64,000 nucleotides of DNA, taken from assembly GCF_008033235.1 (NCBI RefSeq), contig NZ_CP042432.1:3472001-3536000 (forward strand), written 5' to 3'. The DNA is from Anseongella ginsenosidimutans. GTDB taxonomy: Bacteria > Bacteroidota > Bacteroidia > Sphingobacteriales > Sphingobacteriaceae. Position 1 is the stretch's first letter. The number at the start of each line of letters is the position of its first letter. The notes under the pieces were generated by a model. The model ran no database searches. It worked only from the letters and a program-made list of their open reading frames with translations, and was not told the origin of the DNA. The position numbers and the translations under genes were made by a program. Below, piece by piece: positions 24,135 through 34,867 of this stretch.

Positions 24135-24303
24135 ATGCTATTATAGGTTTAACCGGCCTAATATAAGGATGTCTCTGGAAACTGCTTTCAAAATGCTTCT
24201 TTTGCTTATTTCCGATTTGATTTCACTTTCAAATTCGTAAATTCGAAACTAATTTCCAAGGCCCGGCGACAGCGGTACAGAAGGGATAAATAAAGTGACG
24301 ATC

Positions 24304-24870
24304 ATGGCAGATGAGCAAAGCTATTGGCATAACTTCATTGCCGGAAAGGAGGCTGCCTTTCGCATGCTTTACGATCGTTATATTGATCAGTTATTTTCTT
24401 TTGGAAGCAACTATTGTAACGAGCGAGAAACAATAAAAGACGCAATTCATGACCTGTTCATTGATCTTTACCGGTACCGGTCCAATCTCAACCCCCAAGT
24501 AAACATAACCGCCTACCTCTATTCTTCTTTGCGCCGGAAATTAGCTTTACTGCTGAAGAAGACCAGCCAGCAGGAAACACTCGGAGAGCAACATGCAGAT
24601 CTTGACTTTCTCCTGGACGGGAACAAGGAAGCCAGTATGATACGGGACGAAAAAGAAAGGGAGCTGCTGGAATTGCTTTCGAAAGAAATACAAAAGCTTC
24701 CTGCGCGCCAGCGGGAAGTGCTTTATCTCCGGTTCACGCTTGAACTGTCTTACCAGGAAACAGCCGAAATAATGGATATTTCCATCGCGACCGCCAGAAC
24801 GCTTGTATACCGGGCGCTCAGGCAACTACGCAGCAATATGGAAGAAGAAAAAGTACCTCTTTTACCTTAG
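24304..24870 (+). CDS. ECF RNA polymerase sigma factor (FecI-like), no adjacent anti-sigma gene
   Basis: A 188-residue sigma factor starting at ATG 24304 (MADEQSYWHNFIAGKEAAF); a GTG three codons upstream is possible. Region 2 (FRMLYDRYIDQLFSFGSNYC, IKDAIHDLFIDLYRYR) and region 4 (LPARQREVLYLRFTLELSYQETAEIMDISIATARTLVYRALRQLR) are complete. It belongs to the Bacteroidota FecI-like group, which normally sits next to a fecR gene. None follows here: the next gene, 23 bp on, is a convergent luciferase-like oxidoreductase. It is therefore an orphan, possibly controlling the divergent TIM-barrel lipoprotein. Confidence 0.92.
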   Translation: MADEQSYWHNFIAGKEAAFRMLYDRYIDQLFSFGSNYCNERETIKDAIHDLFIDLYRYRSNLNPQVNITAYLYSSLRRKLALLLKKTSQQETLGEQHADLDFLLDGNKEASMIRDEKERELLELLSKEIQKLPARQREVLYLRFTLELSYQETAEIMDISIATARTLVYRALRQLRSNMEEEKVPLLP

Positions 24871-28244: not shown

Positions 28245-28289
28245 ATGACGGCGGTGAAAACGAACGATGGCGGTGAAAACGACAAATGA
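28245..28289 (+). other. Out-of-frame upstream ORF and duplicated translation start
   Basis: ATG 28245 opens a 14-codon frame (MTAVKTNDGGENDK) that ends at TGA 28287-28289, overlapping the sigma-factor start by 22 bases in another frame. The first codons duplicate the start of the real gene (ATGGCGGTGAAAACGAC versus ATGACGGCGGTGAAAACGAA), offset by 22 bp, suggesting a short tandem duplication across the start codon. Confidence 0.55.
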
Positions 28290-28851
28290 AAATCCCTTCT
28301 CTGATGAGCAATTACTGGAACGGCTGAAGAACGGCGACCAGACCGCCTTTGCCATGATCTATGACCGTTATGCCGCCGATCTGATCTGGTATGGTTCAAA
28401 AAAACTTTCTTCACTGGAAGAAGCAAGAGATCTTGTGCATGACCTTTTCGTTGAATTCTGGGACAAACGCGAACGGATCCACATCAATAGTTCGTTCAAA
28501 TCCTACCTCTTTTCAGCCGCCCGCTACCGCATTATTGATCATATCCGAAAAAACGCCCGCAGGGATTATTATGCAGCGGTCATTAACCTCCTGGATTTAG
28601 AAACGGATGATTCCACCCATGATGACATTTTATTCCGGGACCTCAGTAAGATTGCGGAGTCGGAAATAGATAAGCTTCCGCCAAGGACGCGGGAAATTTT
28701 CCGCCTTAGCCGGCAGCGACAGCTCTCCGTCAGAGAAATTGCCCGGGAACTAAACCTTTCCGACCAGACCGTTAAGAATCAATTAAGCGCTGCTTTGCGG
28801 AAGTTAAAACCCGCCATCCAAAAAATTGCGAAAAATTTCATTTTCCTATAG
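28267..28851 (+). CDS. ECF RNA polymerase sigma factor (FecI-like) of the SusC/D locus
   Basis: A 194-residue sigma-70 factor. Region 2 (NGDQTAFAMIYDRYAADLIWYGSKKL, DLVHDLFVEFWDKRE) and region 4 (LPPRTREIFRLSRQRQLSVREIARELNLSDQTVKNQLSAALRKLK) are complete. It is followed 48 bp later by fecR and then susC/susD, the standard trans-envelope signalling order: substrate binding to the STN-bearing SusC is relayed by FecR, which frees this factor to transcribe the uptake operon. Start ATG 28267; note the competing upstream ATG at 28245. Confidence 0.94.
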   Translation: MAVKTTNENPFSDEQLLERLKNGDQTAFAMIYDRYAADLIWYGSKKLSSLEEARDLVHDLFVEFWDKRERIHINSSFKSYLFSAARYRIIDHIRKNARRDYYAAVINLLDLETDDSTHDDILFRDLSKIAESEIDKLPPRTREIFRLSRQRQLSVREIARELNLSDQTVKNQLSAALRKLKPAIQKIAKNFIFL

Positions 28852-28899: not shown

Positions 28900-29907
28900 A
28901 TGGATCAGCGAAACACAGAGGCATTATTCGAAAAATATCTTCAGGGCAAGAGTACGCCGGAAGAAACAGAGCGGATCCATGCCTGGCTCGAACAGCTGAA
29001 CAACGATGAGGAGAAATGGTCGGGGAAACGCGGGCAGGAACAAAAAGAATACCTTGCCGGCCTGTATGAGGATGTCCGGCATTCAATAATGAAAAGGGAA
29101 GAAAATAAGCGGCGCGGGAAAGGCCGCAGCATACCCTTCAAATTAACTTTTCCCCGTATTGCCGCAGCTTTGGTCCTGCTCTGCGGATTATCCTTCCTGT
29201 TTTATATAAACCGCCCCGCAGACAAGGTAGCTCCCAACGAATATATTGTTGAGGCCACAACCGGTGAAGATATAAAAGAACTCCGGTTGAGCGACGGCTC
29301 CGTGGTCTGGTTGAACAAGGGAAGCTCCCTGCAGCATTCTGAAGAATTCACCGCCGGACCAAGAGAAGTTTTTCTGGAAGGAGAGGCTTTCTTCCAGGTT
29401 GCCCCGGATGCTTCCCGGCCTTTTATTATTCACACCGGCGGAATGAAAACCCGGGTACTGGGGACAAGTTTCAATGTGCAGGCTTACAAGGGGGAAAAAG
29501 AAATGCGCGTCGTGGTAGTTACGGGACAGGTAGAAGTAAGCGCGCCTTCGGGGCAGAACGACAAAGTGCTGCTAACAAGCAAGCAAATGGCGACTTATAC
29601 CCCGGATGAAAAACAGCTAAACAAGAAGACCATCCAAAGTACGGAACAGTATACCGCCTGGAAAGATGGAAAGCTGCTTTTCAGGCAAACCCCCATGTCC
29701 GAGGTTGCTGCTCAATTGGAACGCGCCTTCGGATTGAAAATAAAAATGGAAAACTCCGCGATCAGGCATTGTAAAATAACCGGCCGCTTTGACCGGAGCC
29801 AGGCGGCCAGCCTGACCATTGAAGCCATATGTAAGTCCATTGAGGCACGGTTCAGGATCAAAGACGGAACGGTCTTTATCGACGGCCAGGGATGCGGGAA
29901 AAAATAA
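28900..29907 (+). CDS. FecR family anti-sigma factor
   Basis: A 335-residue inner-membrane regulator. The cytoplasmic N-terminus (about 1-80) has the LFEKYLQGKSTPEETERIHAW segment typical of Bacteroidota FecR proteins; one membrane helix (about 87-106, AAALVLLCGLSFLFYI) follows; the periplasmic FecR domain carries LRLSDGSVVWLNKGSSL and REVFLEGEAFFQV and VLGTSFNV; the C-terminal DUF4974 region (PMSEVAAQLERAFGLKI, ITGRFD) is the STN-like part that contacts SusC. It is cotranscribed with the sigma-factor gene. It presumably holds that factor inactive until the substrate signal arrives. Confidence 0.94.
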   Translation: MDQRNTEALFEKYLQGKSTPEETERIHAWLEQLNNDEEKWSGKRGQEQKEYLAGLYEDVRHSIMKREENKRRGKGRSIPFKLTFPRIAAALVLLCGLSFLFYINRPADKVAPNEYIVEATTGEDIKELRLSDGSVVWLNKGSSLQHSEEFTAGPREVFLEGEAFFQVAPDASRPFIIHTGGMKTRVLGTSFNVQAYKGEKEMRVVVVTGQVEVSAPSGQNDKVLLTSKQMATYTPDEKQLNKKTIQSTEQYTAWKDGKLLFRQTPMSEVAAQLERAFGLKIKMENSAIRHCKITGRFDRSQAASLTIEAICKSIEARFRIKDGTVFIDGQGCGKK

Positions 29908-29999
29908 ATTAAAATTAATATAACCTAGATTAATAATGATGATACAAGTACCCTCACCAACCTAAGCAGGCAGACCTTAATACTTTACAGTAAGGATGT

Positions 30000-30042
30000 A
30001 AAAAAGCCCCCCGTGCGAGCGCCAACCTGCACAAAAGGGGCT
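30000..30042 (-). terminator. Minus-strand terminator-like hairpin in the fecR-susC gap
   Basis: Read on the minus strand: AGCCCC, an unpaired TTTT, GTGC, a 12-nt loop, GCAC, unpaired GG, GGGGCT, then TTTTTT. The six-T tail makes it a terminator for leftward transcription, yet no minus-strand gene lies to its right. On the plus strand there is no T-run after the stem. It could end an antisense RNA (see the ncRNA candidate) or act as a processing or attenuation hairpin in the plus-strand mRNA. Confidence 0.65.
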
Positions 30043-30060
30043 ATTGTGAAACGTTTATAA
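30000..30060 (-). ncRNA. Candidate antisense small RNA opposite the susC leader
   Basis: A leftward transcription unit can be drawn. A minus-strand -7 box TACATTTG (plus-strand CAAATGTA at 30067-30074) matches TAnnTTTG and would start RNA near 30060, ending at the T-tailed hairpin at 30000-30042. The RNA of about 60 nt would be complementary to the susC 5' leader. In Bacteroides fragilis, antisense RNAs such as DonS occupy this position in sigma/anti-sigma-controlled susC loci and repress them. A -33 TTG is present but spaced slightly long (23 nt). The call is inference. Confidence 0.35.
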
Positions 30061-30073
30061 AACATTCAAATGT

Positions 30074-33000
30074 ATGATTTTTATCAGATTTCTTGATCAA
30101 TCAATTCCTCTTATCATGCGAGGATCCTTCGTTGCCCTGATGATTACCCTCCTCTCCCTGCAGATGGTGCATTCCAGTACAGGAAAAGCCCAGGGAATAT
30201 TGGACAGGAAAATAAGCATTTCCATAGAAAACGCTTCGCTTGCCGAAGTGCTGGAACAAATCAGGGAGAAAACAGGGGTAGAATTTCTCTTCAGTTCCAA
30301 GATCAACAGCAAAAAGGAAGTCAGCCTGGAGATCAAAAGCGCACGCGTCAGGACAGCGCTGAAACGCCTGTTGCTTCCGGCAGGGCTCACCTATGAAGTG
30401 GTGGGCGAACATATTGTGATCATGAATGACCGCGACACGCCTGAACCCCTTTCCATGATATTGGAACTGCAGGAATACACGGTAAGCGGAACAGTAACCG
30501 ATGCGGAAACCGGCGAACCGCTTCCCGGGGTAAACGTTACGCTGAAAGGCGGGAACTCGGGCGCGACTACCGGCCCCGACGGTGCCTACAACCTGGAGGT
30601 TCCCGAAGCGGAAAACGAAGAACGCGTACTGGTGTTCACCTTTATCGGATACCTGGGCAGGGAAGTACCTCTTAACGGCCAAACCGAGGTTAATGTAACA
30701 TTGCGGCAGGATATTGTGGGGCTTGACCAGGTGGTCGTGATCGGGTACGGGACGCAAAAGAAAAGCGACCTTACCGGTTCCGTTTCACAGGTAAAAGCTG
30801 AAGAAATTAATGCTTACCCTTCCGCTAACGTACTGCAGGCTTTGTCCGGCAGGGCAGCAGGCGTGCAGGTCTTACAAACTACCGGCGCTCCGGGGTCGGG
30901 CCCCAATGTCCGTATAAGGGGGCAGAATTCCATCCAGGGGGAAAATGAACCGCTTTACGTAGTCGACGGCTTTCCGGTTTCAGGCAGCAATCCCACGCTG
31001 CTTAACAATTCAGATATTGAAAGTATAGAGATCCTCAAAGACGCATCCGCCACTGCCATTTATGGCTCCAGGGGTGCGAACGGCGTCGTACTGATTACCA
31101 CAAAACAGGGACGGGCCGGGAAGACAATGGTAGATTTCGAGACCAGTTATAGCAGCCAGCGCATCCGGAATAAACTGGAATTGATGAATGCCAGGGAATA
31201 TGCCCTCCTGGCAAATGAACAAGCGGAAAATGACAATATAGCTCCTTACTTTTCCCAGGAAGAAATAAATGGGCTGGGCGAAGGATTTGACTGGCAGGAC
31301 CTTGTATTTCAAACCGCCCCGATGAGAACGACTTCTTTAAATGTCCGGGGCGGCAATCAAAAGACCCAATTCGCCCTTTCAGGCAGCGTTTTCGGACAGG
31401 AAGGGATTGTTAAAGGGAGCGACTACAATCGCTATTCCCTTCGCGCCAATGTAAATCACCAGGTCAGCGATAAGTTCCGGGTAACCCTTTCCAGCACCAT
31501 GTCCAAACTAAAAACGGAGCGGAAAGATAACGGCGGCGGGTCCCGCGGAAATTCCATGATCGGAGCAGCTATTTCGGCGCCGCCCATCCTGGAACCCTAT
31601 GAAGAAGACGGCTCCTATACGGTGCTGTCGGAAGAATATCCCTTCATACCGGTTGACCTGGTCAACCCGCTTAACTTCCTTAATGAACAGCATGGTGAAA
31701 TAAAAGCCAATGTAGTTCTGGCCAATGCTGCCTTGATCTATAACCCGGTCAAGGAACTGACTATTAAGATTTCCGGGGGTGTTGAAAACAGGGATGAGCG
31801 GACGGATAGTTATACAACCAGAAATTTCTATAATTCTACCGGCAGGGCAAATATCAATACTAAACAATTTACCAGCCTGCTGAGCGAGAACATTATCAGT
31901 TATACAAAGACCTTTAACGACAGGCATGATTTCTCGGCAATGGCCGGGTTTACTTATCAGGACTTTGTCAATACTTCCCTGGAAGCCAGCGGGGTGGGGT
32001 TTCTTTCTGACGCCTTTGAAACGCATAATATCGGCGCCTCCCAAACTCCCGGCATACCTCGTTCCGGTTATTCCAAATCGGTGCTGCTCTCCTATTTAGC
32101 CAGGTTAAATTATACGCTGGACAGCAAATACCTGTTCACAGTCAGCTTCCGCTCCGATGGTTCTTCCCGTTTCAGCGAAGGCAACAAATGGGGCTATTTC
32201 CCCTCAGGCGCCTTTGCCTGGAGGGCTTCTGAAGAAAACTTCTTAAAGGATCACCCGCAGATCTCCGAGCTGAAAGTCAGAACCAGCTGGGGGCTGACAG
32301 GCAGCCAGGCGATTGATCCTTACGCGACGCTCAATAACCTTAGCGCAGGTAACACCATTTTTGGCGACCAGATGTACAATACGTTTGCTCCCGGCACGGA
32401 ATTACCCGGCGAGCTTAAATGGGAAACAACCGAGCAGTTTGACGTCGGGGTCGATTTAGGCTTATTCAAGAACCGCCTGTACCTGACAGCCGATTATTAC
32501 GTCAAAAACACCCGGGACCTGCTGAACACCGTACGGCTGCCGAGTTCCATGGGCTTCACCACCACGATTCAGAACGTAGGTAAAATGCAGAACCGCGGAA
32601 TAGAACTGGGCATTGATGCAAAGGCCATGACCGGTGATTTTAAATGGGATTTGTTCGGAAATATTTCCTTCAATAAGAACGAAGTAGTAAAACTTCACAA
32701 CGGGGAAGATATTCTGGGCAATTTCATCAATGTGCTGGTGGTAGGCGATAATTTCTCCATTTTACGCGAAGGGAGGTCCGTGGGGCAGTTCTGGGGATAT
32801 AAAGAAGAAGGATATGACGAAAACGGCAAAATAACCTACCAGGACCTGAACGGAGACGGCGCTATATCGAATGATGATAAAACCTATATCGGGAATCCGA
32901 ACCCGGATTTTATTTACGGGCTGACCTCCGATATGTCCTATAAAAATTTCCAGCTATCCATTTTTGTCCAGGGAACCCAGGGAAATGACGTTTTCAATGT

Positions 33001-33397
33001 GAGTTCCATTCCCAGCACCATGGATTACGGTCAGGGACTCAATATGCCAAGAGAGGTATTCCTTGACCACTGGACTCCCGGAAACACCGATGCAAAGTAT
33101 CCGGTTATCAGCCGGAATTATTCCGTCAGGGTTTCGGACAGGTGGGTAGAAGACGGCTCCTTCCTGCGCCTGAAAAACGTTCAGCTGGCCTATAACTTCC
33201 CGATGAATGACCTGGGGGTAAAATGGCTGAATAGCGCGCAGATTTATATAAGCGGCCAGAACCTGCTGACCCTGACCAATTATTCCTGGTGGGACCCCGA
33301 AGTGAACTCCCGCGGCGCAGGCACCCAGCAGGGAATCGACCATTACAGTTACCCGGTAGCGAAAACCTTCACCATTGGCCTGCGGGCAGGGTTCTAG
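30074..33397 (+). CDS. SusC/RagA-family TonB-dependent outer-membrane transporter with STN domain
   Basis: A 1107-residue outer-membrane importer. In order: signal peptide (about 10-38), STN signalling domain (about 47-120, ISIENASLAEVLEQIREKTGVEF in two parts: ISIENASLAEVLEQ and IREKTGVEF), a CarboxypepD_reg-like beta-sandwich (about 136-215, YTVSGTVTDAETGEPLPGV), plug domain (about 225-345, GTQKKSDLTGSVSQVKAEEI and LYVVDGFPV), then the beta-barrel to the C-terminal FTIGLRAGF with terminal aromatic. The STN domain shows this is a signalling transporter that pairs with the upstream FecR/sigma system. It forms a complex with the next gene's SusD lipoprotein. The substrate is unknown; no glycoside hydrolase is linked. 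Confidence 0.97.
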   Translation: MIFIRFLDQSIPLIMRGSFVALMITLLSLQMVHSSTGKAQGILDRKISISIENASLAEVLEQIREKTGVEFLFSSKINSKKEVSLEIKSARVRTALKRLLLPAGLTYEVVGEHIVIMNDRDTPEPLSMILELQEYTVSGTVTDAETGEPLPGVNVTLKGGNSGATTGPDGAYNLEVPEAENEERVLVFTFIGYLGREVPLNGQTEVNVTLRQDIVGLDQVVVIGYGTQKKSDLTGSVSQVKAEEINAYPSANVLQALSGRAAGVQVLQTTGAPGSGPNVRIRGQNSIQGENEPLYVVDGFPVSGSNPTLLNNSDIESIEILKDASATAIYGSRGANGVVLITTKQGRAGKTMVDFETSYSSQRIRNKLELMNAREYALLANEQAENDNIAPYFSQEEINGLGEGFDWQDLVFQTAPMRTTSLNVRGGNQKTQFALSGSVFGQEGIVKGSDYNRYSLRANVNHQVSDKFRVTLSSTMSKLKTERKDNGGGSRGNSMIGAAISAPPILEPYEEDGSYTVLSEEYPFIPVDLVNPLNFLNEQHGEIKANVVLANAALIYNPVKELTIKISGGVENRDERTDSYTTRNFYNSTGRANINTKQFTSLLSENIISYTKTFNDRHDFSAMAGFTYQDFVNTSLEASGVGFLSDAFETHNIGASQTPGIPRSGYSKSVLLSYLARLNYTLDSKYLFTVSFRSDGSSRFSEGNKWGYFPSGAFAWRASEENFLKDHPQISELKVRTSWGLTGSQAIDPYATLNNLSAGNTIFGDQMYNTFAPGTELPGELKWETTEQFDVGVDLGLFKNRLYLTADYYVKNTRDLLNTVRLPSSMGFTTTIQNVGKMQNRGIELGIDAKAMTGDFKWDLFGNISFNKNEVVKLHNGEDILGNFINVLVVGDNFSILREGRSVGQFWGYKEEGYDENGKITYQDLNGDGAISNDDKTYIGNPNPDFIYGLTSDMSYKNFQLSIFVQGTQGNDVFNVSSIPSTMDYGQGLNMPREVFLDHWTPGNTDAKYPVISRNYSVRVSDRWVEDGSFLRLKNVQLAYNFPMNDLGVKWLNSAQIYISGQNLLTLTNYSWWDPEVNSRGAGTQQGIDHYSYPVAKTFTIGLRAGF

Positions 33398-33433: not shown

Positions 33434-34867
33434 ATGAAAAAACCAGCTATATTTCTTTCGCTGCTTTTAATGTTTTCTTCCTGTGAGAATTTACTTGAAG
33501 AAAATCCGAAAGCTGTTGCGATCGAGAATTTCTATAATACTGCCGAAGAGTTGGAAACGGCCGTCAATGCGATCTATGTCCCCCTCCGATCGGTCCGGGC
33601 GGAACAGATCTGTATCCTGGATGCACATACCGACTGGGGCTACGGCAGGGGCAGCCGGGCGCAGTACAATGATTTTGCCGGCCTGAATACAACCAATATC
33701 AACACCGCGGGAGGCCGCTGGCGAAGTTTTTACCTCGGTATCCGGAACGCCAACCTGGTAATTGCGCACGCACCCGCTGCTACCAGTATCAGCCCGGAAG
33801 ACCTGGCTCAAAATATAGCCGAAGCAAAATTTCTGCGCGCATGGGCTTATTTTGACCTGGTAAGAAACTGGGGCGGGGTTCCTCTGAGAACAGAAGAGAA
33901 CCTGGAGGAAACGGACGTAGAAAGAAGTTCGGCAGAAGCGGTATATGAATTGATCCTTGCAGATCTGGCGGAGGCGGAAGCCGGCTTGCCGGACGAGCCG
34001 AAACACGTCGGACGCCCCTCTAAGGTTGTAGCGAAAACGCTGCTGGCGGATGTTTACCTGACCTTAGGCCGGTACGAGGAAGCCCGTGATAAAGCGGACG
34101 AGGTGATCCAGTCCGGCAAATTCGCTCTTGTCCCTGTGAGTTCCTTTGAGGATTTTCAGCAGGATATCTTCGGACCCGAGATCGTTACCAGCACGGAAGA
34201 AGTCTTTTACATGAAATTCTCCCGCGAACAGGGCCAGGGGAATTATATTCTGTGGATACTGAACCATCCGAGTACGGGTTTGTACAACTACGGAGGCGCT
34301 TATGCGCATTACAGCGATGCCAGCAATCCGTTTTTCATAGAATGGGATGATAATGATATCAGGAAGCAATTATGGGATCAGATTGATTTCGGAATAAGCC
34401 CTACTACCCTGGTCAGCAAAAAGTATGTTGATCAGAAGGCGGTGAGCAATGACGGTTCCGGAAACGACCTTCCCATTTACCGCTACGCAGAAGTGCTGCT
34501 GTTGTTCGCGGAAGCGGAAAGCAGGGTATCCGGAGGCCCTACCCCGGCAGCGGTGGAAGCCCTCAACAAGGTACACCGGCGCGCCTACGGTTACGATCCG
34601 GAAAGTGCGTCGCCGGTAGATTTCAACATTGCCGATTACAACGCCGAAACATTCATCGAACTGGTACTCCAGGAAAGAGCTTATGAATTCCAGTTTGAAG
34701 GAAAAAGATGGCTGGACCTGAAACGCACCGGTAAAGCGGCGGAGATGATCTCGAAATACAAAGGCCTGAGCATTGCTGAGGCTCACTACCTCTGGCCCAT
34801 CCCTATTGACGAACTGAATTTTAATAATGCAATGGATCCCGCAACTGATCAAAACCCGGGATATTAA
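33434..34867 (+). CDS. SusD/RagB-family substrate-binding outer-membrane lipoprotein
   Basis: A 477-residue lipoprotein (MFSSC lipobox, Cys17) that caps the SusC barrel and binds the imported ligand. Typical SusD features: FYNTAEELETAVNAIY near the N-terminus, AEAKFLRAWAYFDLVRNWGGVPL, TPR-like helices (TLLADVYLTLGRYEEARDKADEVI), and the C-terminal LPIYRYAEVLLLFAEAESR, RAYEFQFEGKRWLDLKRTGKA and HYLWPIPIDELNFNNAM. Slightly shorter than average for the family. It begins 36 bp after susC and its stop overlaps the region ahead of the FAD oxidoreductase gene. Confidence 0.97.
   Translation: MKKPAIFLSLLLMFSSCENLLEENPKAVAIENFYNTAEELETAVNAIYVPLRSVRAEQICILDAHTDWGYGRGSRAQYNDFAGLNTTNINTAGGRWRSFYLGIRNANLVIAHAPAATSISPEDLAQNIAEAKFLRAWAYFDLVRNWGGVPLRTEENLEETDVERSSAEAVYELILADLAEAEAGLPDEPKHVGRPSKVVAKTLLADVYLTLGRYEEARDKADEVIQSGKFALVPVSSFEDFQQDIFGPEIVTSTEEVFYMKFSREQGQGNYILWILNHPSTGLYNYGGAYAHYSDASNPFFIEWDDNDIRKQLWDQIDFGISPTTLVSKKYVDQKAVSNDGSGNDLPIYRYAEVLLLFAEAESRVSGGPTPAAVEALNKVHRRAYGYDPESASPVDFNIADYNAETFIELVLQERAYEFQFEGKRWLDLKRTGKAAEMISKYKGLSIAEAHYLWPIPIDELNFNNAMDPATDQNPGY

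Follow-up and report, generated by a model that had tools for sequence, protein, structure and literature searches.

A predicted antisense small RNA gene opposite the susC leader of a FecR-controlled transport locus in Anseongella ginsenosidimutans

The 166-bp gap that separates fecR from susC in Anseongella ginsenosidimutans carries on its minus strand a hairpin with a T-tail, at a place where no minus-strand gene ends. The window is the whole 64,000-nucleotide stretch of contig NZ_CP042432.1 that was analysed (forward-strand positions 3,472,001 to 3,536,000), and all coordinates are counted from its first letter.

The locus and its minus-strand signals

The genes around the gap lie on the plus strand in the order ECF sigma factor, FecR, SusC with an STN domain and SusD, which is the classical nutrient-sensing transport arrangement. 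An ECF-type sigma factor (28267-28851; Pfam Sigma70_r2, Sigma70_r4_2 and Sigma70_ECF) is followed by an anti-sigma factor composed of FecR and FecR_C (28900-29907; PF04773, E 3.7e-19, and PF16344), by a susC-type TonB-dependent transporter with an STN domain, the presumed target of the small RNA (30074-33397; Pfam STN, CarbopepD_reg_2, Plug and TonB_dep_Rec, with a match to TIGR04056), and by a susD-type surface lipoprotein (33434-34867; Pfam SusD_RagB and SusD-like_3). An FAD-dependent oxidoreductase gene (PF12831, 34827-36236) follows susD immediately, with a 41-nt overlap between the two, and may point to the pathway of the substrate. At 24295-24870 there is another ECF sigma gene, which has no adjoining FecR and faces minus-strand genes. 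The 16S sequence shares 80.7% identity with that of Phocaeicola and 85.6% with that of Rufibacter, which sets the organism apart from Bacteroides; it is placed outside the Bacteroidales.

The plus-strand sequence of 30000-30042 is AAAAAAGCCCCCCGTGCGAGCGCCAACCTGCACAAAAGGGGCT. Read on the minus strand, it gives a terminator hairpin of 38 nt at 30005-30042 (AGCCCC..GGGGGGCT, then TTTTT-A) with a minimum free energy of -20.2 kcal/mol (z -2.4), and a T6 tract at 30000-30005, the first T of which, 30005, doubles as the last paired base. On the right of the hairpin, at a distance of 25 bp, a minus-strand TACATTTG box is located at 30067-30074, has one base in common with the susC ATG and recurs in the same register at other loci. 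The preliminary description had reported this hairpin with its T-tail, the lack of a minus-strand gene for it to serve and the -7-type box to its right, and the sequence confirmed each of these observations. A simple terminator scan of the gap did not pick up the hairpin because the loop limit of the scan was 8 nt. Rfam 15 covariance models at gathering score gave no match in the window gap or in the gaps of the tested Bacteroidales loci. A genome search returned the hairpin as a single copy, and an origin as a dispersed repeat was rejected for that reason.

In this phylum the primary sigma factor has TAnnTTTG as its -7 box, positioned at -12 to -5 (PMC9723704). Because of this spacing, the start of the putative RNA was placed 4-5 nt past the box (~30062-30063) and its 3' end at the T-run (~30000). 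A minus-strand antisense RNA of ~63 nt, at 30000-30063, is thereby predicted, close to the roughly 60 nt that the preliminary description had proposed for an RNA antisense to the susC leader.

Recurrence of the terminator and conservation of its stem

Loci for comparison were supplied by whole-genome searches of relatives, a contig search with the window FecR having yielded only one distant locus. The organism's own genome contains 20 FecR genes (L001-L020), 12 of which have a real gap before susC, and a minus-strand terminator-like hairpin was detected at the lenient setting in 11 of the 12. Under the stricter setting, a minus-strand terminator was present in 59 of the 66 FecR-susC gaps of the organism's family and a plus-strand one in 5 of 66; the control, other tandem gaps, held a minus-strand terminator in 7 of 130 cases (p about 6e-34 against 59/66). 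Gaps in other Bacteroidia families carried the terminator in 9 of 17 cases and those of more distant genomes of the same phylum in 1 of 11. Among SusC genes lacking a FecR, the terminator was found in 2 of 20 and the box in 0 of 20, and the two signals are nearly confined to gap-bearing susC loci under FecR control. Two FecR-SusC architectures are present in the organism's own genome, one with a gap of ~80-200 nt and antisense signals and one nearly gapless and without them, which suggests two modes of regulation in a single genome.

With inferred starts, the median RNA length predicted from hairpin position over the family loci is ~95 nt, against ~63 nt in the window. Independent gaps from the Bacteroidales, supplied by PLSDB entries with the labels Bacteroides finegoldii and Parabacteroides distasonis, contained the minus-strand terminator in 6 of 10 cases and the box at the start codon likewise in 6 of 10, and at the loci with both signals the hairpin positions predict RNAs of ~105-131 nt. 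DonS-type cis-antisense RNAs opposite susC, which reduce susC expression in Bacteroides, measure 78-128 nt according to PMC7366714; the predicted Bacteroidales lengths are near these published values and therefore provide an outside check of the method. Two of the PLSDB "plasmids", those of Parabacteroides distasonis and Bacteroides finegoldii TSDC17.2 (L135, L143), are probably chromosomal contigs, because they carry the housekeeping genes rnpA, tyrS and argH.

Another species of the genus has the true ortholog of the locus (L123; SusC 77% identical), on a contig that stops 127 nt before the susC gene. Its hairpin is almost identical in sequence and both the T-run and the box are retained, while the region left of the A-run is diverged. 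Loss of the hairpin and T-run in close relatives had been named in the preliminary description as an outcome that would speak against a small RNA, and both have survived here. The check suggested there, for covariation of the stem in related genomes, gave the following counts: across nine ortholog pairs of hairpins, 101 of the 104 alignable stem pairs were kept (89 unchanged, 9 with one-sided compatible changes and 3 compensatory) and 3 were broken. Terminator stems are furthermore alike between different loci of the family (CCGGGA-GTG ... CAC-TCCCGG), as if they came from a common ancestor and not from repeated invention.

Proposed action of the RNA and alternative readings

The minus strand of the gap probably contains a DonS-like cis-antisense small RNA gene of ~63 nt, which most likely acts on susC as a repressor that pairs with the leader. 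The housekeeping sigma factor would direct RNA polymerase to make the RNA from ~30063 to 30000, starting from the box that lies over the susC start, and the product would be complementary over its whole length to the susC leader, about 11-74 nt upstream of the ATG. By base-pairing to this leader in sense transcripts of every kind, read-through from sigma-fecR among them, the RNA would block ribosome loading and/or open the duplex to RNase, with low basal expression of susC-susD as the outcome. Such read-through into susC is expected because plus-strand terminators are rare in the gaps, and silencing it is a role for which the antisense RNA would be well positioned. Once the substrate had been sensed and the ECF sigma factor set free, sense transcripts would exceed the antisense RNA and the operon would be switched on. 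Inspection of the gap sequences by eye for a plus-strand ECF promoter motif gave no clear result. Head-on collision of polymerases may contribute to repression, and pairing, duplex decay and collision are alike on the present sequence data.

A related possibility is that the antisense promoter works by transcription itself, through collision or promoter occlusion at susC, the RNA being a by-product. That the promoter box coincides exactly with the susC start and points against the sense polymerase is in keeping with this; however, collision needs neither a conserved terminator nor conserved RNA folding, and northern blots of family members in Bacteroides show discrete RNAs (PMC7366714), so that a role for transcription without the RNA is considered unlikely.

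The hairpin could alternatively act as an insulator that merely halts stray antisense transcription from susC before it reaches fecR and the sigma gene, with neither a dedicated RNA nor a promoter. Consistent with this, no other element of the gaps is as regular as the hairpin (59/66), most loci are without an exact -7 box (it is present in only 37% of terminator-bearing gaps), and in gaps aligned on the -7 box no enrichment of TTG/TTTG was seen at the distance expected for a -33 element, an absence that weakens the case for a promoter more than anything else. The box is nevertheless coupled to the terminator and its register relative to the start codon is fixed: when up to one mismatch was tolerated, it was found on the susC start in 48 of the 76 gaps with a terminator (63%) and in 3 of the 32 without (9%), compared with 2 of 33 FecR-SusC pairs without room for the element (6%), 17 of 320 other starts (5%) and 1 of 20 starts of SusC genes without FecR. 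The last group is nearly free of both signals, as given above, and insulation by itself is regarded as quite unlikely. A generic A-rich start context was considered as a cause of the box and rejected, as AAAAnnTA was not enriched (5/150, against 34/150 for CAAAnnTA). The predicted +1 position prefers a purine, mostly G.

The strand on which the structure is used was assessed with hairpins chosen by Watson-Crick pairs only, after which single in-stem mismatches were counted; because wobble pairs were excluded from the selection, neither strand was favoured. Read on the minus strand, the mismatches comprised 26 G.U and 1 A.C, and the plus-strand reading gave the reverse. Owing to this asymmetry and to the conservation of stem pairs between orthologs, the hairpin looks selected as an RNA of the minus strand. 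The same counts weigh against a hairpin in the plus-strand mRNA leader, through which the fecR-susC transcript would be processed, stabilised or attenuated, with a T-run that is the mere reverse of an A-run. The plus strand does fold too, more weakly (-17.3 vs -22 kcal/mol over the same 72 nt), but plus-strand T-tails occur in only 5 of 66 gaps and the fold over a longer leader is no better than shuffles (z -0.60), which makes this alternative very improbable. Coincidence of a chance hairpin with a chance box is negligibly probable: ~10% of shuffled gaps yield a qualifying minus-strand hairpin and a single one is by itself only moderately unlikely, but the conservation in the ortholog and the recurrence across family gaps, far above shuffles and control gaps, refute a chance origin.

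Upstream of the candidate antisense RNA gene, the plus strand of the window contains a tiny ORF, MMIQVPSPT* (29936-29965), a possible leader peptide. Plus-strand ORFs of 1-11 codons between the FecR stop and the hairpin were found at 45 of the 48 loci with enough room, the expectation from dinucleotide shuffles being 19.7 +/- 3.3 of 48, and often start with ATG-AAA (second codon Lys). The ortholog L123 retains ..SPT* with synonymous changes, other ortholog pairs keep the ORF with synonymous or conservative changes (MKKRPPI*/MKKKPPI*; MDSS*/MDTS*), and the peptide ATGAAATAA is identical in L023 and L024; the ORF is missing at loci whose hairpin directly adjoins the FecR stop codon (L003/L088, L007/L084). 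Since the tiny ORF precedes the hairpin, the antisense RNA would usually run from just past this ORF to the susC start. The recurrence of the tiny ORF appears to be undescribed, and as a lead it may represent a translated leader element. A wider proposal is put forward tentatively, as possible and still doubtful: that ECF sigma/FecR-controlled susC genes throughout the class Bacteroidia share a composite leader, in which a tiny ORF (1-11 codons) is followed by an antisense gene reaching to the start codon, with the -7 box superimposed on it, and in which tiny-ORF translation together with antisense pairing would determine whether the transporter is made from read-through and induced transcripts.

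Significance and relation to known systems

Reports of antisense control over susC come from Bacteroides; what would be new here is a member outside the Bacteroidales, and the leader with its tiny ORF is possibly a new component. A literature search, for which most subscription papers were out of reach, found no description of a susC-antisense class outside Bacteroides. The preliminary description had suggested that the regulatory type extends beyond that genus, and the 16S distance of the host together with the recurrence of the terminator in its family favours the suggestion at the level of predicted genes. The data suggest that antisense control of susC is a standard part of sigma/anti-sigma uptake loci in environmental relatives, given the 11 of 12 gaps in the organism's own genome. 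If true, a few examples from the gut would become a regulatory layer that is predictable from sequence by finding a FecR gene and its gap and reading the minus strand. The proposal also offers an explanation for the difference between FecR-SusC loci with and without a gap, and names bases (CAAA before the ATG, outside the coding sequence) whose change should abolish the RNA and leave the protein untouched.

Among described RNAs, the antisense RNAs of Flavobacterium psychrophilum share with the window element a host of the same phylum outside Bacteroides and the TAnnTTTG motif at -12 to -5, but the available sections of PMC9723704 report pervasive antisense transcripts and describe no susC-leader class; the authors only suggest that work of that kind could set out from their antisense list. 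The GibS and FopS RNAs of Bacteroides are likewise small regulatory RNAs tied to polysaccharide utilisation, but they are mostly trans-acting, FopS being multicopy with only four antisense members (PMC11697453), whereas the window element gives no sign of a trans target.

The closest likeness is to the DonS family, comprising DonS of B. fragilis and the DonS-like RNAs of B. thetaiotaomicron, in which ten further RNAs in the DonS orientation were detected (PMC7366714). The window RNA differs in its predicted length (~63 nt, against 78-128 nt in Bacteroides) and in a host that lies outside the Bacteroidales; of the signals of an autonomous gene, the terminator and the -7 box are present and a -33 element was not found. 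In common with the family, it would be a small RNA with its own terminator, antisense to the 5' region of susC, where its signals bracket 30000-30074, and an ECF sigma/anti-sigma pair adjoins the susC-susD locus. The DonS-type position assigned in the preliminary description is supported by this sigma/FecR/susC order, and the same layout is found in the Bacteroides finegoldii and Parabacteroides loci.
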